From Irineochytrium annulatum (lineage: Eukaryota > Chytridiomycota > Chytridiomycetes > Chytridiales > Chytridiaceae): DNA of 64,000 nucleotides. The stretch covers positions 88,466-152,465 of the forward strand of contig JADGJL010000011.1 of NCBI GenBank assembly GCA_027600665.1. Reading direction: 5' to 3'. The notes beneath the pieces were generated by a model. It had not been told where the DNA came from, did not search any database, and worked only from the letters and a program-made list of their open reading frames with translations. Positions 29,721 through 41,890 of the stretch are shown piece after piece (position 1 is the stretch's first letter; every line of letters begins with the position of its first letter). A program made the translations under genes and the position numbers.

Positions 29721-31400
29721 ATGGGTATCGGTGTAGTGCAAGTAGCGGTAACGCTGCTGATCATCCTGCTGCTGGTGAAGCCGGTGGGAAAATATGTAGT
29801 AAACGTGTTCGATGGACAGCGAACGGGAATGGATCAGTTTTTTGGCCGGCCGGAGCGATTGCTCTATCGCGTGATGGGGGTACGGGAGAATGAGTCCATG
29901 GGGTGGAAAAAGTACCTCACGGCCGTTCTCCTCTCCAACTTCGTAATGTTGGTGTTGATGTTTCTAGTACTGCGACTGCAAAAATATTTACCGCTCAATC
30001 CGGATGGGATTGACAATATGCCAGCGGCGCAGGCATTTAATACAGCCGTTTCGTTCATGACCAATACGAACTGGCAGTCTTATACGGGCGAGAACGCCCT
30101 GTCGTACCTGTCACAGATGCTGGCCGTGACATTCCCGATGTTTACGTCGGCAGCGACGGGATTCGCGGTAGCCATTGCGTTCATTCGCGGGCTGGTAGGC
30201 CGCCGGGATGAACTGGGGAACTTTTACGTCGACCTTGTACGGTCGATTACACGTATTTTTTTACCGCTGAGCTTCATCGTGGCCCTGTTCCTCGTGTTCC
30301 AGGGTGTGCCTCAGACGCTTGCGGGAGCGGTGAACGCCACCACGCTGGAAGGCGCCCAGCAGACGATTACACGTGGACTGGTCGCCTCACTGGAGTCGAT
30401 CAAACACATTGGCACCAACGGTGGTGGCTGGTTTGGAACCAATGCTGCGCATCCCTTCGAGAATCCAACGGCCCTGAGCAATTTGGTGCATATCGTCTGC
30501 ATGATGCTGTTGCCAACTGCGTTAGTCTACGCCTTCGGCTTGATGGTCAATAACCGGAAGCAGGGTTGGGCCTTGTTCGCAGCAATGAGTTTTCTTTTCC
30601 TTGTGATGTTGACCACGGTATTTGTCTCCGAATATCGCGGTGTGCCTGCGCTGGATGCAGCAGGTCTGCAGGGCAATATGGAAGGGAAAGAGGTCAGGTT
30701 CGGCATACCCGAGTCTGCTTTATTTACGGCAGTAACGACAGCGGCTACTACAGGTTCAGTCAACAATATGCACGAATCGCTTACCCCGCTTGGAGGTCTG
30801 GTGTCACTCGCCCAGATGATGCTTAATAACGTGTTTGGCGGCAAAGGGGTAGGGCTGATCAACGGACTGTTGTACGTGATTCTAGCTGTGTTTATCTGTG
30901 GATTAATGGTGGGGCGTACACCGGAGTTCCTAGGCAAAAAAATCGAGGGCAAAGAAGTGAAACTCGCATCCATCGCCTTGCTCATTCATCCTTTGATTAT
31001 TCTTGCGCCAACGGCACTCGCACTTATGCGGCCTGAAGCTATTGCGTCCATCTCGAACGGGGGCATGCATGGCCTGACCGAAGTTCTCTATGCTTTTGCC
31101 TCGGGTGCAGCCAATAATGGATCGGCCTTTGCCGGACTGAATGCCAATACAGACTTTTACAACATCGCGATTGGTATCGTTATGTTGCTGGGAAGGTACG
31201 TTTCGATGATCGCCATGCTCGCTATCGCGGGTTCACTTGCTGTGAAACGGGTTGTACCTGTAACCACAGGTACCTTGCGGACACACACACCTCTCTTTGC
31301 TGGCATTCTGGTTATGATGATCGTTGTTGTCGGCGCACTTACGTTCTTCCCTTCGCTTGCTCTTGGACCGATTGCAGAGCATCTGGCGATGATTCAATGA
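29721..31400 (+). CDS. kdpA: KdpA, potassium channel-like subunit of Kdp ATPase
   Basis: A 559-residue membrane protein with about ten transmembrane helices. The four pore loops typical of KdpA are seen, including SFMTNTNWQSY near residue 111, GTNGGGWFGTNAAHPFENP near 232, and later AATTGSVNNMHESL and ASGAANNGSAF. These form the K+ selectivity filter. Length matches the family (about 557). GGGAGGAAATG... gives the ribosome site before ATG 29721. The Kdp complex is a high-affinity, K+-starvation-induced pump; in the operon it precedes kdpB and kdpC. Confidence 0.98.
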   Translation: MGIGVVQVAVTLLIILLLVKPVGKYVVNVFDGQRTGMDQFFGRPERLLYRVMGVRENESMGWKKYLTAVLLSNFVMLVLMFLVLRLQKYLPLNPDGIDNMPAAQAFNTAVSFMTNTNWQSYTGENALSYLSQMLAVTFPMFTSAATGFAVAIAFIRGLVGRRDELGNFYVDLVRSITRIFLPLSFIVALFLVFQGVPQTLAGAVNATTLEGAQQTITRGLVASLESIKHIGTNGGGWFGTNAAHPFENPTALSNLVHIVCMMLLPTALVYAFGLMVNNRKQGWALFAAMSFLFLVMLTTVFVSEYRGVPALDAAGLQGNMEGKEVRFGIPESALFTAVTTAATTGSVNNMHESLTPLGGLVSLAQMMLNNVFGGKGVGLINGLLYVILAVFICGLMVGRTPEFLGKKIEGKEVKLASIALLIHPLIILAPTALALMRPEAIASISNGGMHGLTEVLYAFASGAANNGSAFAGLNANTDFYNIAIGIVMLLGRYVSMIAMLAIAGSLAVKRVVPVTTGTLRTHTPLFAGILVMMIVVVGALTFFPSLALGPIAEHLAMIQ

Positions 31401-31467: not shown

Positions 31468-33609
31468 ATGAATGCAGTCGAACGAAAGAAGGAACAGACG
31501 ATGCAACACATGGATACAGAAATGTTTAGAACGAAGGGCAATGAGCCGGATAACAATCGCGGTCATATTCAACATGATCCCGGATCGAAACGGTCGTTAA
31601 GCAAAGATATGATACTTCAGGCTTCACGGGATGCGTTCAAGAAGCTTAATCCAGTGGTCATGATCAAAAACCCGGTTATGTTCATTGTCGAGGTAGGTAC
31701 ATTCATTACGCTCTTGTTATGCATCAATCCCGATCTGTTCACCGCATCCGAAGCGGGGCGCGGTTACAATATCGCCGTATTTTCCATTTTGCTGTTCACA
31801 CTGCTGTTCGCCAACTTCGCGGAGGCACTAGCTGAAGGTAGAGGTAAAGCGCAGGCGGATACGTTACGCAAGACGAAGTCGGACACCATGGCCAATCTGG
31901 TACAGAAGGATGGAACCATCCGACACGTGTTTTCGACCCAATTGAAAAAAGGAGATATGGTACGTGTGGAAGTTGGTGAACTGATCCCGACGGACGGTGA
32001 GATTATGGAGGGCTTGGCCTCTATTGATGAATCGGCTATTACGGGAGAATCTGCCCCGGTTATCAAGGAAGCAGGAGGCGATTTCTCTTCGGTTACCGGA
32101 GGTACTCGCGTCGTATCGGATTACATCGTCATGCGTGTTCAGACCGATCCGGGGGAGTCATTCCTTGACCGGATGATCTCTCTGGTTGAGGGTGCACAGC
32201 GCCAGAAAACACCTAATGAAATCGCGCTGACAACCCTGCTCGCCGTATTAACCCTGATCTTTCTGATCGTCATTCTGACAATGGTTCCGATGGCGAATTA
32301 CTTGGGTATTCGACTGGATCTGGCGACCCTGATCGCATTGCTCGTCTGCTTGATCCCCACCACCATTGGTGGATTACTGTCTGCTATTGGTATTGCCGGT
32401 ATGGACCGTGTTACGCAGTTCAATGTGCTCGCCATGTCGGGTAAAGCGGTGGAAGCAGCCGGGGATATCGACACATTGATTCTGGACAAAACGGGGACGA
32501 TCACATACGGAAACCGCATGGCATCTGAGTTTATTCCCGTTCAGGGCATTACTTCGTCAGAGATGACGCAAGCTGCTTTACAGGCTTCTGTGCGAGATGA
32601 GACCCCGGAAGGGCGTTCTGTTGTAGAACTGGCAGGCAAACAAGGCCAAAGCTGGCCTGAGACGGAGTATGCACATGCAGAAAATGTGGAATTCACGGCA
32701 GAGACCCGGATGTCCGGTCTCAATCTGAGTAGCGGAATGAAGATCCGCAAAGGTGCGGTGGATGCGATCAAAAGATATATTGCTTCCGAAGGAGGCCGTA
32801 TACCGGGGGATCTGGATGAGATCGCAAATCGAATTGCAAAGGCTGGGGGTACGCCGCTTGCTGTAGCTATCGATGAACATATCTACGGTGTGATCTATCT
32901 GAAAGACACTGTGAAGCCAGGGCTGAAAGAGAAGTTCGCTGAGATGCGCGCCATGGGCATCAAGACCATTATGTGTACAGGCGACAATCCGCTCACCGCA
33001 GCGACCATCGCGCTAGAAGCGGGCGTGGATGATTTTATTGCCGAAGCGAAGCCCGAGGATAAGATTGCGGCGATCAAAAAAGAGCAGCAGGAGGGCAAAC
33101 TCGTCGCCATGACGGGCGACGGTACCAACGATGCTCCTGCTCTGGCGCAGGCCGATGTGGGCCTGGCGATGAATTCGGGCACCATGGCGGCCAAGGAAGC
33201 GGCCAACATGATTGACTTGGACTCTGACCCGACCAAGCTATTGTCGGTCGTCTCCATTGGCAAGCAGCTGCTGATTACACGCGGTGCGCTCACAACCTTT
33301 TCGATATCCAATGATATCGCGAAATATTTTGCCATCATCCCAGCCATGTTTATTCTCGCCATGCCGCAGCTTCAGGCACTGAATATTATGAATCTGGCTT
33401 CACCGCAGTCTGCGATCCTGTCGGCGCTCATCTTCAACGCCATTATCATCCCGCTACTCATTCCTATCGCAATGAGAGGGGTCAAGTATCGGGCGATGTC
33501 AGCGGAACGGCTGCTTGGTCGCAATGTGTTCATCTATGGTGTAGGTGGTGTGATTGTACCTTTTATCGGCATTAAGCTCATTGATATGGTTCTGTCGGGG
33601 ATTCTTTGA
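31468..33609 (+). CDS. kdpB: KdpB, ATP-hydrolysing subunit of Kdp ATPase
   Basis: A 713-residue P-type ATPase subunit. The actuator motif AITGESAPV, phosphorylation site D340 in DKTGT, nucleotide-domain motifs, and the hinge [12 protein letters not shown] are all intact. KdpB couples ATP hydrolysis to K+ movement through KdpA. The N-terminus has an extra ~35 polar residues before the family core, somewhat longer than usual. ATG 31468 follows TGGAGGTGG. The last TM helices end [12 protein letters not shown] as usual. Spacing to kdpC is about 100 bases. Confidence 0.98.
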
Positions 33610-33708
33610 GAAAACGATGTGATCTTGAAACCCTGAACTAAAGAGTGATACACCGCAACGCTTATCAACATTATTCTTTTATCCTAATGAATTCAGGAAG
33701 TGATTTGT

Positions 33709-34269
33709 ATGAACATGTTCTTACCCGCCGTACGGCTATCCGTCGTGCTGATGGTGATCTGCGGTCTAATCTACCCGCTTGTAACGACTGGCGTAGCCCA
33801 ACTTCTCTTCCCTGCGCAGGCGAATGGCAGTCTGATTACGCAAAATGAGAAAATTATCGGCTCGTCACTGCTGGCGCAGGAAATCCAATCGCCGGGGCTG
33901 TTCCAGCCCCGGGCATCGAATGCCGGTTATGACCCAACGGCTTCAGCCGGTTCGAATCGTGCCGTAGCTTCAGAGGAGTATATTAGCGAGATGAAGGAAA
34001 AGATGGCTAAGCTTCAGCAGGAAAACCCCGGATTAAAGCAAATTCCTGCTGATCTCGTGACGGTTTCAGGCTCTGGACTTGATCCGGATCTCTCTCCCGA
34101 AGCCGCTGAGGCACAGATCCCGCGTATTAGCGAAGCTACTGGGCTTAGTGAACAGCAGCTTGTACAACTTGTACATGAGTATACGGAAGGCCGTCAGATG
34201 GGTATATTTGGGGAACCTCGTGTGAATGTAACGGCTCTGAATCTGGCGCTGACAGCCGAACTGAACTAA
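33709..34269 (+). CDS. kdpC: KdpC, accessory subunit of Kdp ATPase
   Basis: A 186-residue protein with one N-terminal transmembrane helix (about residues 7-29, with the GLIYPLVTTGVAQ motif) and an outer domain carrying FQPRASNAGYDPTASAGSN, the conserved KdpC segment. The end LVHEYTEGRQMGIFGEPRVNV is typical. KdpC stabilises the complex and helps nucleotide binding by KdpB. ATG 33709 follows AGGAAGTG; the TTG at 33700 overlaps that site. A terminator follows, so the regulator genes form a separate transcript or depend on read-through. Confidence 0.97.
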   Translation: MNMFLPAVRLSVVLMVICGLIYPLVTTGVAQLLFPAQANGSLITQNEKIIGSSLLAQEIQSPGLFQPRASNAGYDPTASAGSNRAVASEEYISEMKEKMAKLQQENPGLKQIPADLVTVSGSGLDPDLSPEAAEAQIPRISEATGLSEQQLVQLVHEYTEGRQMGIFGEPRVNVTALNLALTAELN

Positions 34270-34283
34270 CGAGTTAACATATT

Positions 34284-34328
34284 AGCCTGCTCACGACATA
34301 TCGTGAGGGGCTTTCTCCGTTTTTTTTA
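34284..34328 (+). terminator. Terminator between kdpC and the KdpD-like sensor gene
   Basis: AGCC..CTCACGA pairs with TCGTGAG.GGCT, followed after seven bases by eight T. It separates pump genes from regulator genes. Confidence 0.75.
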
Positions 34329-34361: not shown

Positions 34362-36701
34362 ATGGAAGACAGCTTCAAGCGCAAGTCACCGGAAGAGATG
34401 CTGAAGATGATTAAGAAGCTGCAGCAGGGTACGCTCAAAATCTACATCGGCCCCGTCAGCGGATCGGGCAAAACGTATCACATGTTACGTGAAGGAAATG
34501 CGTTGCGCGACCAGGGCGTTGATGTGGTCATCTGTGCCGTATCGACGATGCGCAGACCGGAAACGGTAGAGCAGCTTGGCACACTCGAACGGATTCCAAG
34601 CATTCACTGGTTGCGCCAGAGTGATGATGCAGAGATGAAGGATCTGAACTTGGATGCACTCCTGGGGCGTAATCCGGAGGTGGTGCTGGTGGATGGTTTG
34701 GCACATCACAACCGGGAAGGCGCCCGACATGCTACCCGGCTGGAGGACATTCAATTCTTGCTCCGACACAATATCAGTGTCATGACAACGGTGAATGTGT
34801 ATGAGTTGGAGGGTTATACCGAGCTGGCACGGCAGCTCACAGGTATCGCAGCAGAACATACCGTACCCGCGGATACACTGGAACTTGCGGATGAGGTCAA
34901 GCTGATTGACGTCACGCCGGAAACGATACTGAGCCGTCTGGCAGAAGGTCACTTGAAGGGGCGTGAGGGAGAAGCTGTATTTCGTCAAGGCAATCTGGGT
35001 ATTCTGCGCGAATTGGCCCTGAGATTGGTTGCAGAAGGGGTGAATGAATCCCTGCGTGAGCATCGGGAGGAGATGGGAATTACGGTGACAACAGGCATCG
35101 CGGAACGGATTCTGGTGTCCACGCAATATCATTGGAATGGTTCGATCTATATCCGGCGGGGACAACAGATTGCCAAACGACTGAATGGTGATCTGTGCGC
35201 CGTGGTTTTTCGGAATATGAAGCAGCCATTAACCAAAGAGGCAACCGTATTTCGGCGGAATATGATCAAGCTGGTGGAGAAGTTTGGCGGCCATATGGAG
35301 GAGCTGTCTGTATTACACCGTCGGAACATCCCGTCTACACTGGCACGTTACGCAATGGAGCATCAGATTACCCGGATTGTGATGGGACATTCCCGGCGTA
35401 CGCGCTGGCAGGAACTGTGGCAAGGGTCCGTTGTTAATTCGCTGCTACGCAGATTACGTGGTGTGGATCTGTTTCTGGTTGCTGATCGAGCGGCCCGGGA
35501 GGGTGAACGTGTGGTCCCGGCCAAAGTAAACGAAGTGGAGTCACTGACATACCGCAGACTAAGTGAGCAGGAGATGAAGGAACAGATTGGCCAGATCCAG
35601 CGGGGTACATTCAAAATATATATCGGAGCCGCACCCGGTGTAGGCAAAACCTACATGATGCTGCGGGAAGGCAATGATTTGCTCCGTAAGGGCATCGATG
35701 TGCGGATTGGCTTGTTGGAGACACATGGACGGGCGGAAACCGTGGAGCAGATAGGTCATTTATCTGTGATCCCTCGCGTGCAGCGAATTTATCAGGAAAC
35801 TCGTCTGGAAGAGATGGACACAGAGGCCATTCTGCATCTTTGCCCAGAAGTGGTGCTTGTGGATGAACTGGCACATACGAATATACCCGGGAGTGTCCTG
35901 CAAAAGCGTTATGAAGATGTCCTGCTCCTGCTGAATGCAGGCATCTCGGTGATTACCACAATGAACGTACAGCATCTCGAAAGTCTAAATGATGCCGTTG
36001 AACATATTACAGGTGTTCGTGTCCGCGAGACCGTACCCGATCGGATCATTCAGATGGCGGATGAGGTGCAGCTGATTGATGTGGCGCCCCAGGCCTTGCG
36101 GCAGCGCATGAGGGAGGGTAAAATCTATGCAACTGCCAAGGTCGAGCAAGCCCTTGCGAATTTCTTCAAAATCGGTAATTTGATTGCTTTGCGAGAACTT
36201 GCCCTGCGCGAACTGGCGGACGATGTCGATGAACGGCTTGAAACACAACAAGCTAAAATTGCACTTCGAGGACCTTGGCGCAGACAGGAAGCGGTCTTTG
36301 TATGTGTAAGCAGTGATCATCATGCCGAGCGGCTGATCCGGCGTGGATTCCGCATGGCTTTCCGTCTAAAAGCCATCTGGCACGTACATCATATCCACAT
36401 CGGTGAATCCATGAGTGCCGAAGTGAAGTGCCATCTGGACGCGTTGGAGCAACTGACGATTCGGCTTGGCGGTCAATTTCATATCCATCACAGTCCAAGG
36501 TTGCGCGAAGTACCTGAGATTTTGGCAAGAAAGGCATCGGAGGCGAGAGCAACCCAGTTGGTAGTCGGGCAGGCAAGACGGGTGTGGTGGCTGAATGGCT
36601 ACCGCGGCTCAGGTTCGGTGGTCAACCGACTTGTACGGTTGTCGCGGCATCTGGATGTATTAATCGTTGCAGATTACGATGAGGAACGGAGCGGGATGTG
36701 A
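34362..36701 (+). CDS. KdpD-type sensor with two tandem N-terminal modules, no kinase domain
   Basis: A 779-residue soluble protein made of two copies of the KdpD sensor module (KdpD N-domain followed by a UspA-like domain), each about 390 residues. Walker A motifs are GPVSGSGKT (residues 30-38) and GAAPGVGKT (about 422-430). The second copy has the family's VLVDELAHTN; the first reads VLVDGLAHHN, losing the acidic residue. It has no DUF4118 membrane part and no kinase, which are encoded by the next gene. The TGA stop is four bases before that gene's start. Ordinary KdpD has one sensor module fused to the kinase. The pair probably acts as a split KdpD; the first module may have become regulatory. 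AAGGGGAAGAGAG lies before ATG 34362. Confidence 0.9.
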   Translation: MEDSFKRKSPEEMLKMIKKLQQGTLKIYIGPVSGSGKTYHMLREGNALRDQGVDVVICAVSTMRRPETVEQLGTLERIPSIHWLRQSDDAEMKDLNLDALLGRNPEVVLVDGLAHHNREGARHATRLEDIQFLLRHNISVMTTVNVYELEGYTELARQLTGIAAEHTVPADTLELADEVKLIDVTPETILSRLAEGHLKGREGEAVFRQGNLGILRELALRLVAEGVNESLREHREEMGITVTTGIAERILVSTQYHWNGSIYIRRGQQIAKRLNGDLCAVVFRNMKQPLTKEATVFRRNMIKLVEKFGGHMEELSVLHRRNIPSTLARYAMEHQITRIVMGHSRRTRWQELWQGSVVNSLLRRLRGVDLFLVADRAAREGERVVPAKVNEVESLTYRRLSEQEMKEQIGQIQRGTFKIYIGAAPGVGKTYMMLREGNDLLRKGIDVRIGLLETHGRAETVEQIGHLSVIPRVQRIYQETRLEEMDTEAILHLCPEVVLVDELAHTNIPGSVLQKRYEDVLLLLNAGISVITTMNVQHLESLNDAVEHITGVRVRETVPDRIIQMADEVQLIDVAPQALRQRMREGKIYATAKVEQALANFFKIGNLIALRELALRELADDVDERLETQQAKIALRGPWRRQEAVFVCVSSDHHAERLIRRGFRMAFRLKAIWHVHHIHIGESMSAEVKCHLDALEQLTIRLGGQFHIHHSPRLREVPEILARKASEARATQLVVGQARRVWWLNGYRGSGSVVNRLVRLSRHLDVLIVADYDEERSGM

Positions 36702-36705
36702 ATAG

Positions 36706-38301
36706 ATGTTGTCTGAACGAATAAAAAAAGAAATGCAGGCATCCCATGGAAAACGGGTTCCGGCATATGTATGGGTGACCCTCGGGGTGACGCTGCTAAC
36801 TTTGCTGCTTCATGCCATTGGCATGAGTGGTGATCTGGTTAACGTAGCGCTTGTATACCTGTTTCCCGTTCTGGTGAGTGCTGTGTATTGGGGAATGGGT
36901 CCCGCTGTATATGCCGCGAGTTTTAGTGTCATTATGTTTGACTTCTTTTTTGTCCCGCCATATCTGAGCTTTACGGTCGAGGATTTGAGATATCTCATCT
37001 CTTTTGTCGTGTATCTTGCGGTGGCGATCCTGACAGCAAGTCTTGCAGGTCGGTTGCGACAACAACTGGAGATGGTAAAAGCACGTGAAGCCACAACTAA
37101 CTCCCTGTACGCATTGAGTCGTCAGATGACAGCCATTACCGATCTGAATACGCTACAGGTGAATATAGCAACCCAGGTTTCGCTCACCTTGGGCAAACCA
37201 GCAGCGGTGTATCTTCCCGATGGTCAGGGGGACCTACTGGTTACAAGCTCTTCTTCACCCGCATTAGAAGGGGAAATGGATAGCTGGGGGGGTGGAGAGT
37301 CGGAGATTGCCATTGCCAAATGGGTGTATCATCACGGACAGATCGCAGGTAAGGGATCATCCGCTTTACGGGAATCTCCCGGACTATATGTGCCGCTGCG
37401 TACAGAGGAGCAGATACATGGCGTGCTCGCCGTGAGTATGGACGCTGGCGAGTCTCATGAGCAGCAAGAGCAGCTTCGTCTGTTGGAGGCGTGCGGTGGA
37501 CTGGCGGCAGGTGCCATTGCCCGAGTGAAGCTGGCGGAAGAGGCCCGATTGGCGCAGATCACTGCTGAATCAGAGCGTATACGCACAGCGCTGCTGGACT
37601 CTGTCTCTCATGAATTGCGTACGCCCCTAACTGCCATTATCGGCTCGGCTACGGGATTGTTGGAGAATGATACTCTTTTTACACCCGAGGATCGGAGAGA
37701 ATTAACAGGCAACATTCGGGATGGGGCCTTGCGCATGAATCGTCTTGTCACGAATTTGTTGGGTATGGTTCGGCTGGAGAGCGGCATGTTGCAACTGAAC
37801 CGGAAATGGTGTGACGTGGGAGACATAATAAGCGTTGTACTGACACAAGTTCGGGAATTCAGTCCGCATCGCAACATTCAAGTTGAACTGCCTGATGATC
37901 CGGCCTTCATCTACGGAGATGAAGTCTTGCTGGAGCAGGTGCTGGTCAATATCGTCAGCAACGCCATCAAATATTCGCCCGATGAGAGCCAGATTGTTAT
38001 CATTGTGACGAGTAATAAGAGTCCAATTCAATTGACGATCCGGGTAGATGATCAAGGTGTCGGTATACCGGAAGCGGAAAGAATACGTATATTTGATAAG
38101 TTCTATCGCTCAGAGTCTACTCGGCATGTGACAGGAACAGGGCTTGGTCTGGCGATCTGCAAAGGCATTGTGGAAGTCCACGGAGGTACCATTGTGGCAG
38201 AGCCGAATCCGGGCGGGGGAACGAGAATGCGCATAGAACTCCCCATGGAGGCCCACGGATCGCGGTTTCCCTATTCAGAACAAGGAGAGGTTGAAGAATA
38301 A
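36706..38301 (+). CDS. kdpD: Histidine kinase equal to the C-terminal half of KdpD
   Basis: A 531-residue protein: a short lead, four transmembrane helices of the DUF4118 type (about residues 22-118), a GAF-like domain (about 150-275), then HisKA with the phosphorylated H302 in SVSHELRTPL and an HATPase domain with NAIKYSP, DQGVGIP and GTGLGLAI. This is the layout of KdpD minus its N-terminal sensor. In its own frame a TAG stop directly precedes ATG 36706, so the split from the sensor gene is clean, not a single frameshift. It should phosphorylate KdpE in response to K+ limitation, working with the sensor encoded just upstream. Confidence 0.92.
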   Translation: MLSERIKKEMQASHGKRVPAYVWVTLGVTLLTLLLHAIGMSGDLVNVALVYLFPVLVSAVYWGMGPAVYAASFSVIMFDFFFVPPYLSFTVEDLRYLISFVVYLAVAILTASLAGRLRQQLEMVKAREATTNSLYALSRQMTAITDLNTLQVNIATQVSLTLGKPAAVYLPDGQGDLLVTSSSSPALEGEMDSWGGGESEIAIAKWVYHHGQIAGKGSSALRESPGLYVPLRTEEQIHGVLAVSMDAGESHEQQEQLRLLEACGGLAAGAIARVKLAEEARLAQITAESERIRTALLDSVSHELRTPLTAIIGSATGLLENDTLFTPEDRRELTGNIRDGALRMNRLVTNLLGMVRLESGMLQLNRKWCDVGDIISVVLTQVREFSPHRNIQVELPDDPAFIYGDEVLLEQVLVNIVSNAIKYSPDESQIVIIVTSNKSPIQLTIRVDDQGVGIPEAERIRIFDKFYRSESTRHVTGTGLGLAICKGIVEVHGGTIVAEPNPGGGTRMRIELPMEAHGSRFPYSEQGEVEE

Positions 38302-38302
38302 G

Positions 38303-39004
38303 ATGAATGCACCACTAGGGGCTCGCATACTGGTGATCGATGATGAGCCGCAGATTCGCAAATTGCTCAAGGTCACTCTTCAGGCACATCAATTCGAACT
38401 CCACGAGTGTGGGGAGGGCGCAGAGGGTGTTATTCAGGCGAGTATTGTACATCCGGATCTGATCATCCTTGATCTGGGTTTGCCAGGCATGTCTGGTATG
38501 GAGGTACTTCGCCGCATTCGCGAATGGTCACAAGTGCCCATTATCGTGCTGACAGCGAAGGATCAGGAGGGAGACAAAATTGCCGCGTTGGATGGTGGTG
38601 CAGATGATTATGTGACCAAACCATTCGGGATGGGTGAGTTGGTCGCCCGTATTCGGGTGGCGCTGCGTCATGTAGCCAAAACGACGGATGAGCCGATACT
38701 GCGCTTCGGATCACTCACAATTGATCTGGCCCAAAGGCAAGTCGAACTGGAGGGGACTTTGGTCAAATTAACACCAACGGAATATGAGATGCTGAAGGTG
38801 CTCGCCTCGAATGCGGGGAAGATCATCACCCAGCGTCAGCTTTTGCAGCAAGTATGGGGAGGGCATCATCATGAGTCCGACAGCCATTATCTTCGGGTAT
38901 ATGTGGGACATCTGCGCAAGAAATTAAATGAAGATCCAACCAAGCCCCGGTATATTCAGACGGAGCCTGGCATTGGTTATCGCTTTTTGCTTCCTGCCGA
39001 ATAA
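38303..39004 (+). CDS. kdpE: KdpE response regulator
   Basis: A 233-residue OmpR-type regulator. The receiver domain has the acidic pocket IDDEP, phosphorylation site D57 in LIILDLGLPG, and K in VTKPF; a winged-helix DNA-binding domain with TPTEYEMLK follows. It should activate the kdp pump promoter. ATG 38303 lies one base after the kinase stop and has AAGGAGAGG about 12 bases upstream; an upstream in-frame TTG sits too close to that site. A bidirectional terminator follows. Confidence 0.95.
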   Translation: MNAPLGARILVIDDEPQIRKLLKVTLQAHQFELHECGEGAEGVIQASIVHPDLIILDLGLPGMSGMEVLRRIREWSQVPIIVLTAKDQEGDKIAALDGGADDYVTKPFGMGELVARIRVALRHVAKTTDEPILRFGSLTIDLAQRQVELEGTLVKLTPTEYEMLKVLASNAGKIITQRQLLQQVWGGHHHESDSHYLRVYVGHLRKKLNEDPTKPRYIQTEPGIGYRFLLPAE

Positions 39005-41453: not shown

Positions 41454-41543
41454 ACGCACCTAGTGTTTCAAATTTGAAAGAAAAGTTTTGATCATTAAAC
41501 GTTGTCCCGCTATACTGATACAGAAGTGTAATTGAATATGTGG

Positions 41544-41711
41544 AACTTGGTGCTTTGCCCGTCAGGGTGGAAGCTTAATAGGGAAGTCCGGTGTAATACC
41601 GGCGCGGTCCCGCCACTGTAACAGAGGAGTCAGGTAGCGATAATCCACTGGTTTAGACCGGGAAGGAGCTGCAAGTGACGATGATTCTGGAGCCAGGAGA
41701 CCTGCCAGGTT
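41544..41711 (+). promoter_or_regulatory. Cobalamin (B12) riboswitch aptamer
   Basis: The conserved core is readable: GAAGCTTAATAGGGAA, the CCGGTGTAATACCGGCGCGG segment, CCCGCCACTGTAA, and the B12 box AGCCAGGAGACCTGCC at 41691-41706. The closing stem P1 pairs AACTTGG (41544-41550) with CCAGGTT (41705-41711). Downstream, AAACAC/GTGTTT can pair as a competing helix before the terminator at 41792. It should switch off the transporter operon when adenosylcobalamin is plentiful. Confidence 0.93.
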
Positions 41712-41791
41712 TAACAAACACAGTAGTACCCTACGGGAGATAGGAAGGTGTTTAGAGAGCATGATTTTTTCTGAAAATCTGTTTATTTAAG

Positions 41792-41830: not shown

Positions 41831-41890
41831 GTTATGAACGAAGAACATCATGGCACATACATAGAGTTTTGGGGAAGGACGTTAGAGCAA

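Follow-up and report, generated by a model that had tools for sequence, protein, structure and literature searches.

A 64,000-nucleotide stretch of DNA (the window; contig JADGJL010000011.1, positions 88,466 to 152,465 of the forward strand), deposited in the assembly of the chytrid Irineochytrium annulatum (GCA_027600665.1), holds the potassium pump genes kdpABC followed by a gene for a 779-residue protein in which two KdpD N-terminal modules, each a KdpD domain followed by a universal stress protein (USP) domain, stand in tandem. The architecture of this protein, the loss of the catalytic glutamate and the retention of the ATP-binding residues in module 1, the reciprocal constraint on the two modules, the descent of the tandem and the neighbouring kinase from two lineages, the co-occurrence of the tandem with kdpB and the alternation of a histidine kinase (HK) with a riboswitch are all shown by the sequence and its comparison with relatives. 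We consider it fairly probable that the protein is a pseudokinase and a kinase of the atypical serine kinase (ASK) type paired in one chain, and that it controls the Kdp K+ pump post-translationally, module 1 sensing and module 2 phosphorylating KdpB. The contig is Paenibacillus-like, and the assembly (26.9 Mb, 1082 contigs) is probably mixed or contaminated; besides the two KdpD domains of the 779-residue protein, the search of that assembly turned up no others.

The tandem gene and its two active sites

A first-pass annotation of this DNA had described two KdpD N-modules in one gene with no kinase, and profile searches bore this out: PF02702 matched the open reading frame (ORF) twice (module 1, 222 bits; module 2, 305 bits; scored after cutting the two apart), the Walker A motifs lie where they had been placed, at residues 30-38 and 422-430, and no HisKA or HATPase domain was found in the protein. 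The membrane and kinase half is indeed in the next gene, which has DUF4118, GAF, HisKA and HATPase_c matches. Pfam Usp exceeded its cut-off (24) once only, in module 1 (27.5 bits), module 2 remaining below it. The model NF038185, 'KdpD-like non-kinase potassium sensor', scored 722 bits against a cut-off of 550 over two stretches, the better being residues 397-771, whereas with NF007793, for canonical full-length KdpD, the two genes reached 510.9 and 337.7 against a cut-off of 1123. The 779-residue protein is therefore not a full-length KdpD in the sense of PRK10490, in which KdpD, USP, transmembrane (TM), GAF and kinase parts form one chain, but a short KdpD, defined as PF02702 plus USP without a kinase core.

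The TGA at 36699-36701 ends the 779-residue ORF, and the TAG at 36703-36705 shares the frame of the 531-residue kinase ORF and stands immediately 5' of its ATG, leaving a gap of 4 bases between the genes. Both ORFs are thus cleanly closed in separate frames, as annotated, and a single gene broken by a frameshift was rejected on the stops in both frames. A sequencing or assembly error was also rejected, because relatives carry the same tandem ORF: the 120 homologues listed (of 7599) are 763-824 aa long, at 97-100% query coverage. The named genera among them are Paenibacillus, Brevibacillus, Cohnella and Gorillibacterium, with one Bacillus sp., and the listed proteins that match best are named Paenibacillus amylolyticus, at 96% identity, and P. 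xylanexedens, at 95% (a second protein under the latter name reaches 84%).

The KdpD domain of Escherichia coli is reported to be an ASK for Ser162 of KdpB that cannot do without either Asp109 or Glu110 of Walker B and that also requires Walker A and the W39/R190 pair, probably in order to bind ATP (PMC11018627). In the window the Walker B motif reads VDGLAHHN in module 1 and VDELAHTN in module 2. The earlier statement that module 1 has lost its acidic residue holds for the Walker B glutamate, but Walker B has two acids and the aspartate is kept. We counted residues (E. coli numbering) in 132 tandem proteins (131 distinct), comprising 98 from lists ranked by best domain score, 17 found with the patterns [VI]DELAHTN and GKTYHMLR, 16 further proteins and the window, and in 38 single modules, 22 of which come from a pattern-biased set. 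This sampling favours conservation in module 2, the lists being ranked by the best domain (module 2) and the search being by pattern; the glutamate position of module 1 is unaffected, although GKTYHMLR requires the end of the module 1 Walker A. Glutamate occupied position 110 in 132/132 second modules and 38/38 single modules, but in only 4/132 first modules, where the residues were G96 H8 D6 S5 N5 A4 E4 L1 I1 R1 Q1; for this reason module 1 is not classed as an ASK. By contrast, G30, G36 and K37 of Walker A (G-X5-GKT), D109 and R190 were present in 132/132 of each module.

An overlapping-species set of 121 proteins from a protein search gave the same picture (glutamate in 2/121 first and 121/121 second modules), and all 11 of 11 Bacillales tandems lacked it in module 1, with seven different residues in its place. 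A control of 60 single-module or full-length sequences, of which 59/60 had the glutamate, was biased because it had been collected with the two patterns; the recount was therefore made on Bacillales loci found by profile, where the short single modules had it in 16/16. A tree of 117 first-module domains, built with column 110 removed, required at least 3 changes between glutamate and non-glutamate and 16 changes of residue identity. Position 110 of module 1 thus drifts while the ATP site stays fixed. The suggestion that one module may be a pseudo-ATPase is backed by these comparisons as far as a pseudo-enzyme goes; pseudo-serine-kinase is the better term, because the E. coli domain is reported to show no ATPase activity (PMC11018627).

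Reciprocal constraint and the proposed serine kinase pair

Across the 132 tandems, mean pairwise identity (from 4000 random pairs, and given with no p-value because pairs are not independent) was 0.644 for the KdpD domain of module 1 versus 0.754 for that of module 2, and 0.586 versus 0.473 for the respective USPs. In an 11-column ligand loop the difference was wider (module 1, 0.844; module 2, 0.492; singles, 0.453). Constraint is therefore reciprocal, the ATPase domain being more conserved in module 2 and the USP in module 1. Among 111 columns conserved in singles, 54 were kept in both modules, 30 were lost in module 1 only and 2 in module 2 only. Module 1 has also evolved fixed residues of its own, including E148, Y147, Q269, G260 and S261, so that it is not simply decaying and seems to have taken another job. 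We give almost no credence to module 1 as a functionless, decaying leftover: the loss of its catalytic glutamate and a long stem branch of 0.97 changes per column would suit that explanation, but module 1 remains in frame across the surveyed families. Plain decay was rejected on the invariant ATP-site residues and the conserved USP loop.

In the mechanism that we propose, module 2 would be, by homology, a working ASK that phosphorylates the serine of the TGES motif of KdpB when K+ is plentiful; TGES was found in 90/90 surveyed KdpBs, the window included. Module 1 would bind ATP-Mg without the catalytic glutamate, and its conserved USP would be the main sensor of a ligand, presumably a nucleotide and plausibly c-di-AMP, which is reported to stimulate the short KdpD of Deinococcus geothermalis (PMC11018627). 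By docking on the USP of module 2 it would make the chain a fixed heterodimer, in which module 1 may read the state of the cell and gate module 2. In both of two AlphaFold models the USP domains are predicted to pack like a tandem-USP dimer. The module 1 USP gave a fold match to 7ji4; searched alone against PDB sequences, its best E was only 0.1. Transcription of kdp would be a separate matter, presumably governed in the window by the KdpD-type HK without an N-module and its KdpE; most of the sampled relatives that lack this kinase would use a c-di-AMP riboswitch upstream of kdpA instead.

Two other roles for module 1 have to be set against the proposed pair. It may be a structural spacer, offering a second USP for dimerisation and keeping its ATP site for folding, as the predicted docking of the USPs and the loss of the glutamate would allow; we think this unlikely, since it predicts neither the constrained USP loop of module 1 nor the absolute retention of its ATP-contacting residues. 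Alternatively, module 1 may be re-tooled and not dead, its catalytic base having moved, for example to Glu148, so that it phosphorylates or hydrolyses another substrate. The known ATP ligands and the Walker B aspartate in 132/132 speak for this, as does Glu148 itself (NVYEL, 132/132), where other KdpDs have histidine (NVQHL). We nevertheless give it a modest chance at best: position 110 drifts among 11 residues, as under relaxed constraint, the 30 residues gone from module 1 that single modules conserve include ones of ETH and QH, and Glu148 is present even in the four sequences that keep Glu110.

Several observations weigh against the pseudo-ASK/ASK pair that we favour. Close to the active-site strand, module 1 has E148 in 132/132 and Y147 in 129/132, where singles have H and Q, and this gain of conserved residues makes a relocated catalytic base conceivable. 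The four first modules with glutamate (L178, L190, L235 and L238) are nested among relatives without it, so its loss is neither irreversible nor strictly required; five other tandems outside the main group (L022, L023, L024, L351 and L352) keep it in both modules, so a tandem need not include a dead module. At position 39, where E. coli has tryptophan, both modules carry Tyr or Phe, and so do the 38 singles. The c-di-AMP motif reported for the USP of Staphylococcus aureus KdpD, (A/G/C)XSXSX2N(Y/F) (PMC8214093), was matched in neither USP of the tandem, the aligned loops reading VSTQYHWNG in module 1 and VCVSSDHHA in module 2. Finally, both AlphaFold models have low overall confidence (pTM 0.41 and 0.52). 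In two of the genomes with a glutamate-bearing module 1 (G287 and G286), a further Kdp operon encodes a full-length KdpD (L360, L361).

Descent, distribution and transcriptional control

The layout had been read as one KdpD split in two, and this did not survive comparison: the tandem modules group with short KdpDs (100/99) and the kinase half with full-length ones. In a thorough tree built from 54 KdpD domains, module 1 formed one group (100/100) and module 2 another (99/98), both among short stand-alone KdpDs, and this short group was split (100/99) from the full-length N-modules of Paenibacillaceae, E. coli, two alphaproteobacteria and a metagenome-assembled genome (MAG) of Anaerolineae. 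It also held three rows of other phyla (L036, L037 and L050), of which the actinobacterial L050 is full-length. Bacillales and Paenibacillaceae were broadly apart within both modules, Bacillus methanolicus standing alone in module 2, which makes it plausible that a single old duplication was followed by joint descent of the modules, a history that suits the sequences. Four of the other tandems with glutamate in both modules formed an independent group (95/91), likewise among the short KdpDs. One of the five such tandems, L023, is from a cyanobacterium MAG, and two, L351 and L352, have a TM and HK gene and a regulator downstream.

In a quick kinase tree, with SH-aLRT values of 83-95 at the relevant branches, two full-length KdpDs that retain their own N-modules, L017 of P. 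sedimenti (895 aa) and L010 of Saccharibacillus (823 aa), fell among the kinase halves without one, and L040 (889 aa) fell at their base. The neighbouring kinase thus comes from a separate full-length KdpD lineage and has lost its N-module. That an ancestral KdpD was split, its front half then being duplicated and its back half becoming the neighbouring kinase, is in our view very improbable. Gene order, the narrow gap and the joint holding of KdpD, USP, TM, GAF and kinase domains by the two products would fit such an event, but the full-length Paenibacillaceae N-modules lie elsewhere than the tandem modules, full-length KdpDs with a degenerate N-module of their own adjoin tandems or short ASK genes (L017, L010, L040, L362 and L363), and the first three of these nest within or beside the kinase halves. 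None of these five has the glutamate (L017 N, L010 R, L040 G, L362 D, L363 D), whereas all 4/4 full-length KdpDs that are the sole KdpD of their operon (L267, L360, L361 and L364) have it (Fisher's exact p = 1/126; the rows are few and related). Such a contrast is consistent with each pump having a single serine-kinase chain.

In the surveyed Paenibacillus families the tandem is the usual form of KdpD, and it is also present in part of Bacillales. In the P. planticolens family a KdpD domain exceeded the cut-off in 85/104 genomes, and in 79 of these 85 the best one lay in an open frame of 768-839 aa (exceptions G012, G013, G029, G058, G089 and G110). One exception, G058, has the two modules as two overlapping ORFs of 390 and 381 aa (L264); its kdpC is broken too, for which reason a sequencing fault is possible. 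The Paenibacillus sp. HW567 family had a KdpD domain in 301/394 genomes, with frames mostly of about 770-850 aa among the rows listed. Of 299 genomes drawn evenly from the order of Bacillus methanolicus, 46 had a KdpD domain over the cut-off; by our count it lay in a tandem in 14, in a single module of 377-424 aa in 30 and in a fragment in 2.

The domain co-occurs with kdpB. In the P. planticolens family kdpB was found in 82/104 genomes, with a KdpD domain in 82/82 of them, and 19/104 had neither over the cut-offs; three (G084, G089 and G096) had a KdpD domain and no kdpB match at 1e-250. Eight of 100 loci lacked kdpABC in the fetched stretch, and all eight genomes have kdpB elsewhere: about 9-11 kb from the tandem for L244 and L247 (genomes G216 and G236), and far off or on another contig for L184, L198, L200, L216, L226 and L238. 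In these last six, module 2 reads VDELPH and not VDELAH. No further KdpD domain over the cut-off was found in the eight genomes.

The two-gene layout of the window does recur in relatives, as a minority state: a kinase half and regulator directly follow the tandem in 16/100 loci, plus the window. The 100 loci include L264, with its modules as two ORFs, and L267, whose KdpD is full-length and not a tandem, and the count covers adjacency only, since a kinase may lie elsewhere (L008 has one divergently upstream). No c-di-AMP riboswitch was found in the window. Among sampled loci, this riboswitch (RF00379) lay in sense orientation no more than 1 kb upstream of kdpA in 16/20 without the kinase half versus 1/16 with it (p = 9.5e-6), and anywhere in the fetched stretch in 16/20 versus 3/16 (p = 0.0006); the 20 loci were hand-picked, the 16 are all that have the kinase half, and Fisher's test ignores relatedness. 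An earlier sample with shorter upstream parts gave 4/10 versus 0/10, six of those ten recurring among the 20. Within Bacillales the riboswitch was present in 3/3 tandem loci and not in one single-module locus. Riboswitches upstream of kdpA in tandem-bearing Paenibacillaceae and Bacillales were seen at L380-L400, L410 and L415-L418, several loci having two in a row. The riboswitch and KdpDE have been described as mutually exclusive, with riboswitch-controlled kdp placed mainly in the B. cereus group (PMC6488665), and the Paenibacillaceae cases are an addition to that picture. The alternation suggests that transcriptional control, by riboswitch or HK, is exchangeable while the post-translational brake stays.

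The locus, known systems and significance

The six genes from kdpA to the regulator are all on the + strand, and their features are collected in Table 1. A hairpin followed by a T-run lies between kdpC and the tandem gene, at about 34290-34327, and was seen in 4/89 loci measured, the window included. In a scan, terminator-like sites were not enriched (8 found versus 7.7 expected), nor were promoter-like sites (4 versus 9.6). Further downstream, a cobalamin riboswitch (RF00174, 118 bits) occupies 41531-41723 (+), shortly upstream of a gene at 41834 that reads as an ABC-transporter permease. Other kdp loci contain a feature, for example at L391:2660-3148, L385:2742-3143 and L410:2777-3169, with only weak matches below cut-off, TrkA_N among them; by tblastn it was found in 78/202 sequences, the window not among them, with some genomes counted more than once and some stretches not reaching the site.

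Table 1. Genes, domains and sites of the kdp locus in the window
Feature	Position	Strand	Basis or remark
kdpA	29721-31400	+	TIGR00680
kdpB	31468-33609	+	carries TGES motif
KdpB Ser195 codon, presumed phosphorylation site (= E. coli KdpB S162)	32050-32052	+	TGES motif
kdpC	33700-34269	+	NF001454
Tandem short KdpD, putative pseudo-ASK module + ASK module, 779 aa, without HK	34362-36701	+	
Module 1 KdpD domain, residues 22-227	34425-35042	+	PF02702; ATP-binding residues kept, catalytic Glu lost
Gly112 codon, at catalytic Walker B Glu position (E. coli KdpD E110)	34695-34697	+	sequence and alignment column
Module 1 USP domain, about residues 245-376	35094-35489	+	loop identity; fold match to 7ji4
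QYHWNGS loop of module 1 USP	35124-35144	+	
Module 2 KdpD domain, residues 413-622	35598-36227	+	PF02702; keeps Walker A, the Asp-Glu of Walker B and the Arg
Glu502 codon, catalytic Walker B Glu of module 2	35865-35867	+	sequence; Glu in 132/132 module 2
Module 2 USP domain, about residues 641-775, with a variable ligand loop	36282-36686	+	NF038185 stretch 397-771
Membrane HK half, 531 aa: DUF4118 TM, GAF, HisKA, HATPase_c	36706-38301	+	separate KdpD lineage, no N-module
KdpE-type response regulator	38291-39004	+	best model PRK10529 KdpE, 273 bits, under its 325 cut-off

Eukaryotic JAK kinases are pseudokinase-kinase tandems, in which a dead copy that still bears a nucleotide site is fused before a live one; the tandem differs from them in its unrelated P-loop KdpD fold and in having a membrane pump as its target. 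The predicted packing of its two USPs resembles that of tandem-type universal stress proteins (UspE, 3loq, Rv2623), although here each USP follows a KdpD domain and the two are not adjacent in sequence. All domain types of the canonical E. coli K-12 KdpD (NC_000913) are present across the two genes of the window, but not in one chain, and the kinase half lacks an N-module. Closer likenesses are the short KdpDs and the separate ASK and HK chains already described (PMC11018627). The tandem shares with the short KdpD ASK of D. geothermalis (PMC11018627; NF038185) the KdpD domain and USP, the lack of an HK and a gene usually beside kdpABC, and its module 2 has the catalytic residues reported in the same work; it differs in having two modules per chain, the first without the catalytic glutamate and with a specially conserved USP loop. 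Like the species with separate chains, the window has a serine-kinase chain and a TM/GAF/DHp-CA histidine-kinase chain as two genes; unlike the most common ASK form reported there, which has one KdpD/Usp module, its ASK chain has two (PMC11018627). No published description of a duplicated KdpD module or a pseudo-ASK was found, including by a word search of the text of PMC11018627, its supplements lying outside the search.

In this regulator, which is carried by soil Bacilli (Paenibacillus, for example), module 1 has the appearance of a 'dead' partner built into the chain to steer its live counterpart. Somewhat more tentatively, and with confidence falling a little short of even, we suggest that the homodimer of a short KdpD ASK was turned into an obligate heterodimer when the module was duplicated and the copies fused, with a dedicated pseudokinase in front, module 1 being the ATP-loaded sensor that holds the ligand site and module 2 the catalyst acting on KdpB, and that this is the standard Kdp regulator of Paenibacillaceae, paired at the level of transcription with either a c-di-AMP riboswitch or an HK. 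How the serine-kinase activity of KdpD is controlled is said to remain uncharacterised (PMC11018627). The tandem family puts a sensor-bearing and a catalytic copy on one predicted soluble chain, and the question can therefore be addressed by removing one half. If our reading is correct, the family would stand out among bacterial P-loop serine kinases as a clear example of a conserved dead/live pair, and regulation between modules could be dissected within one soluble protein.

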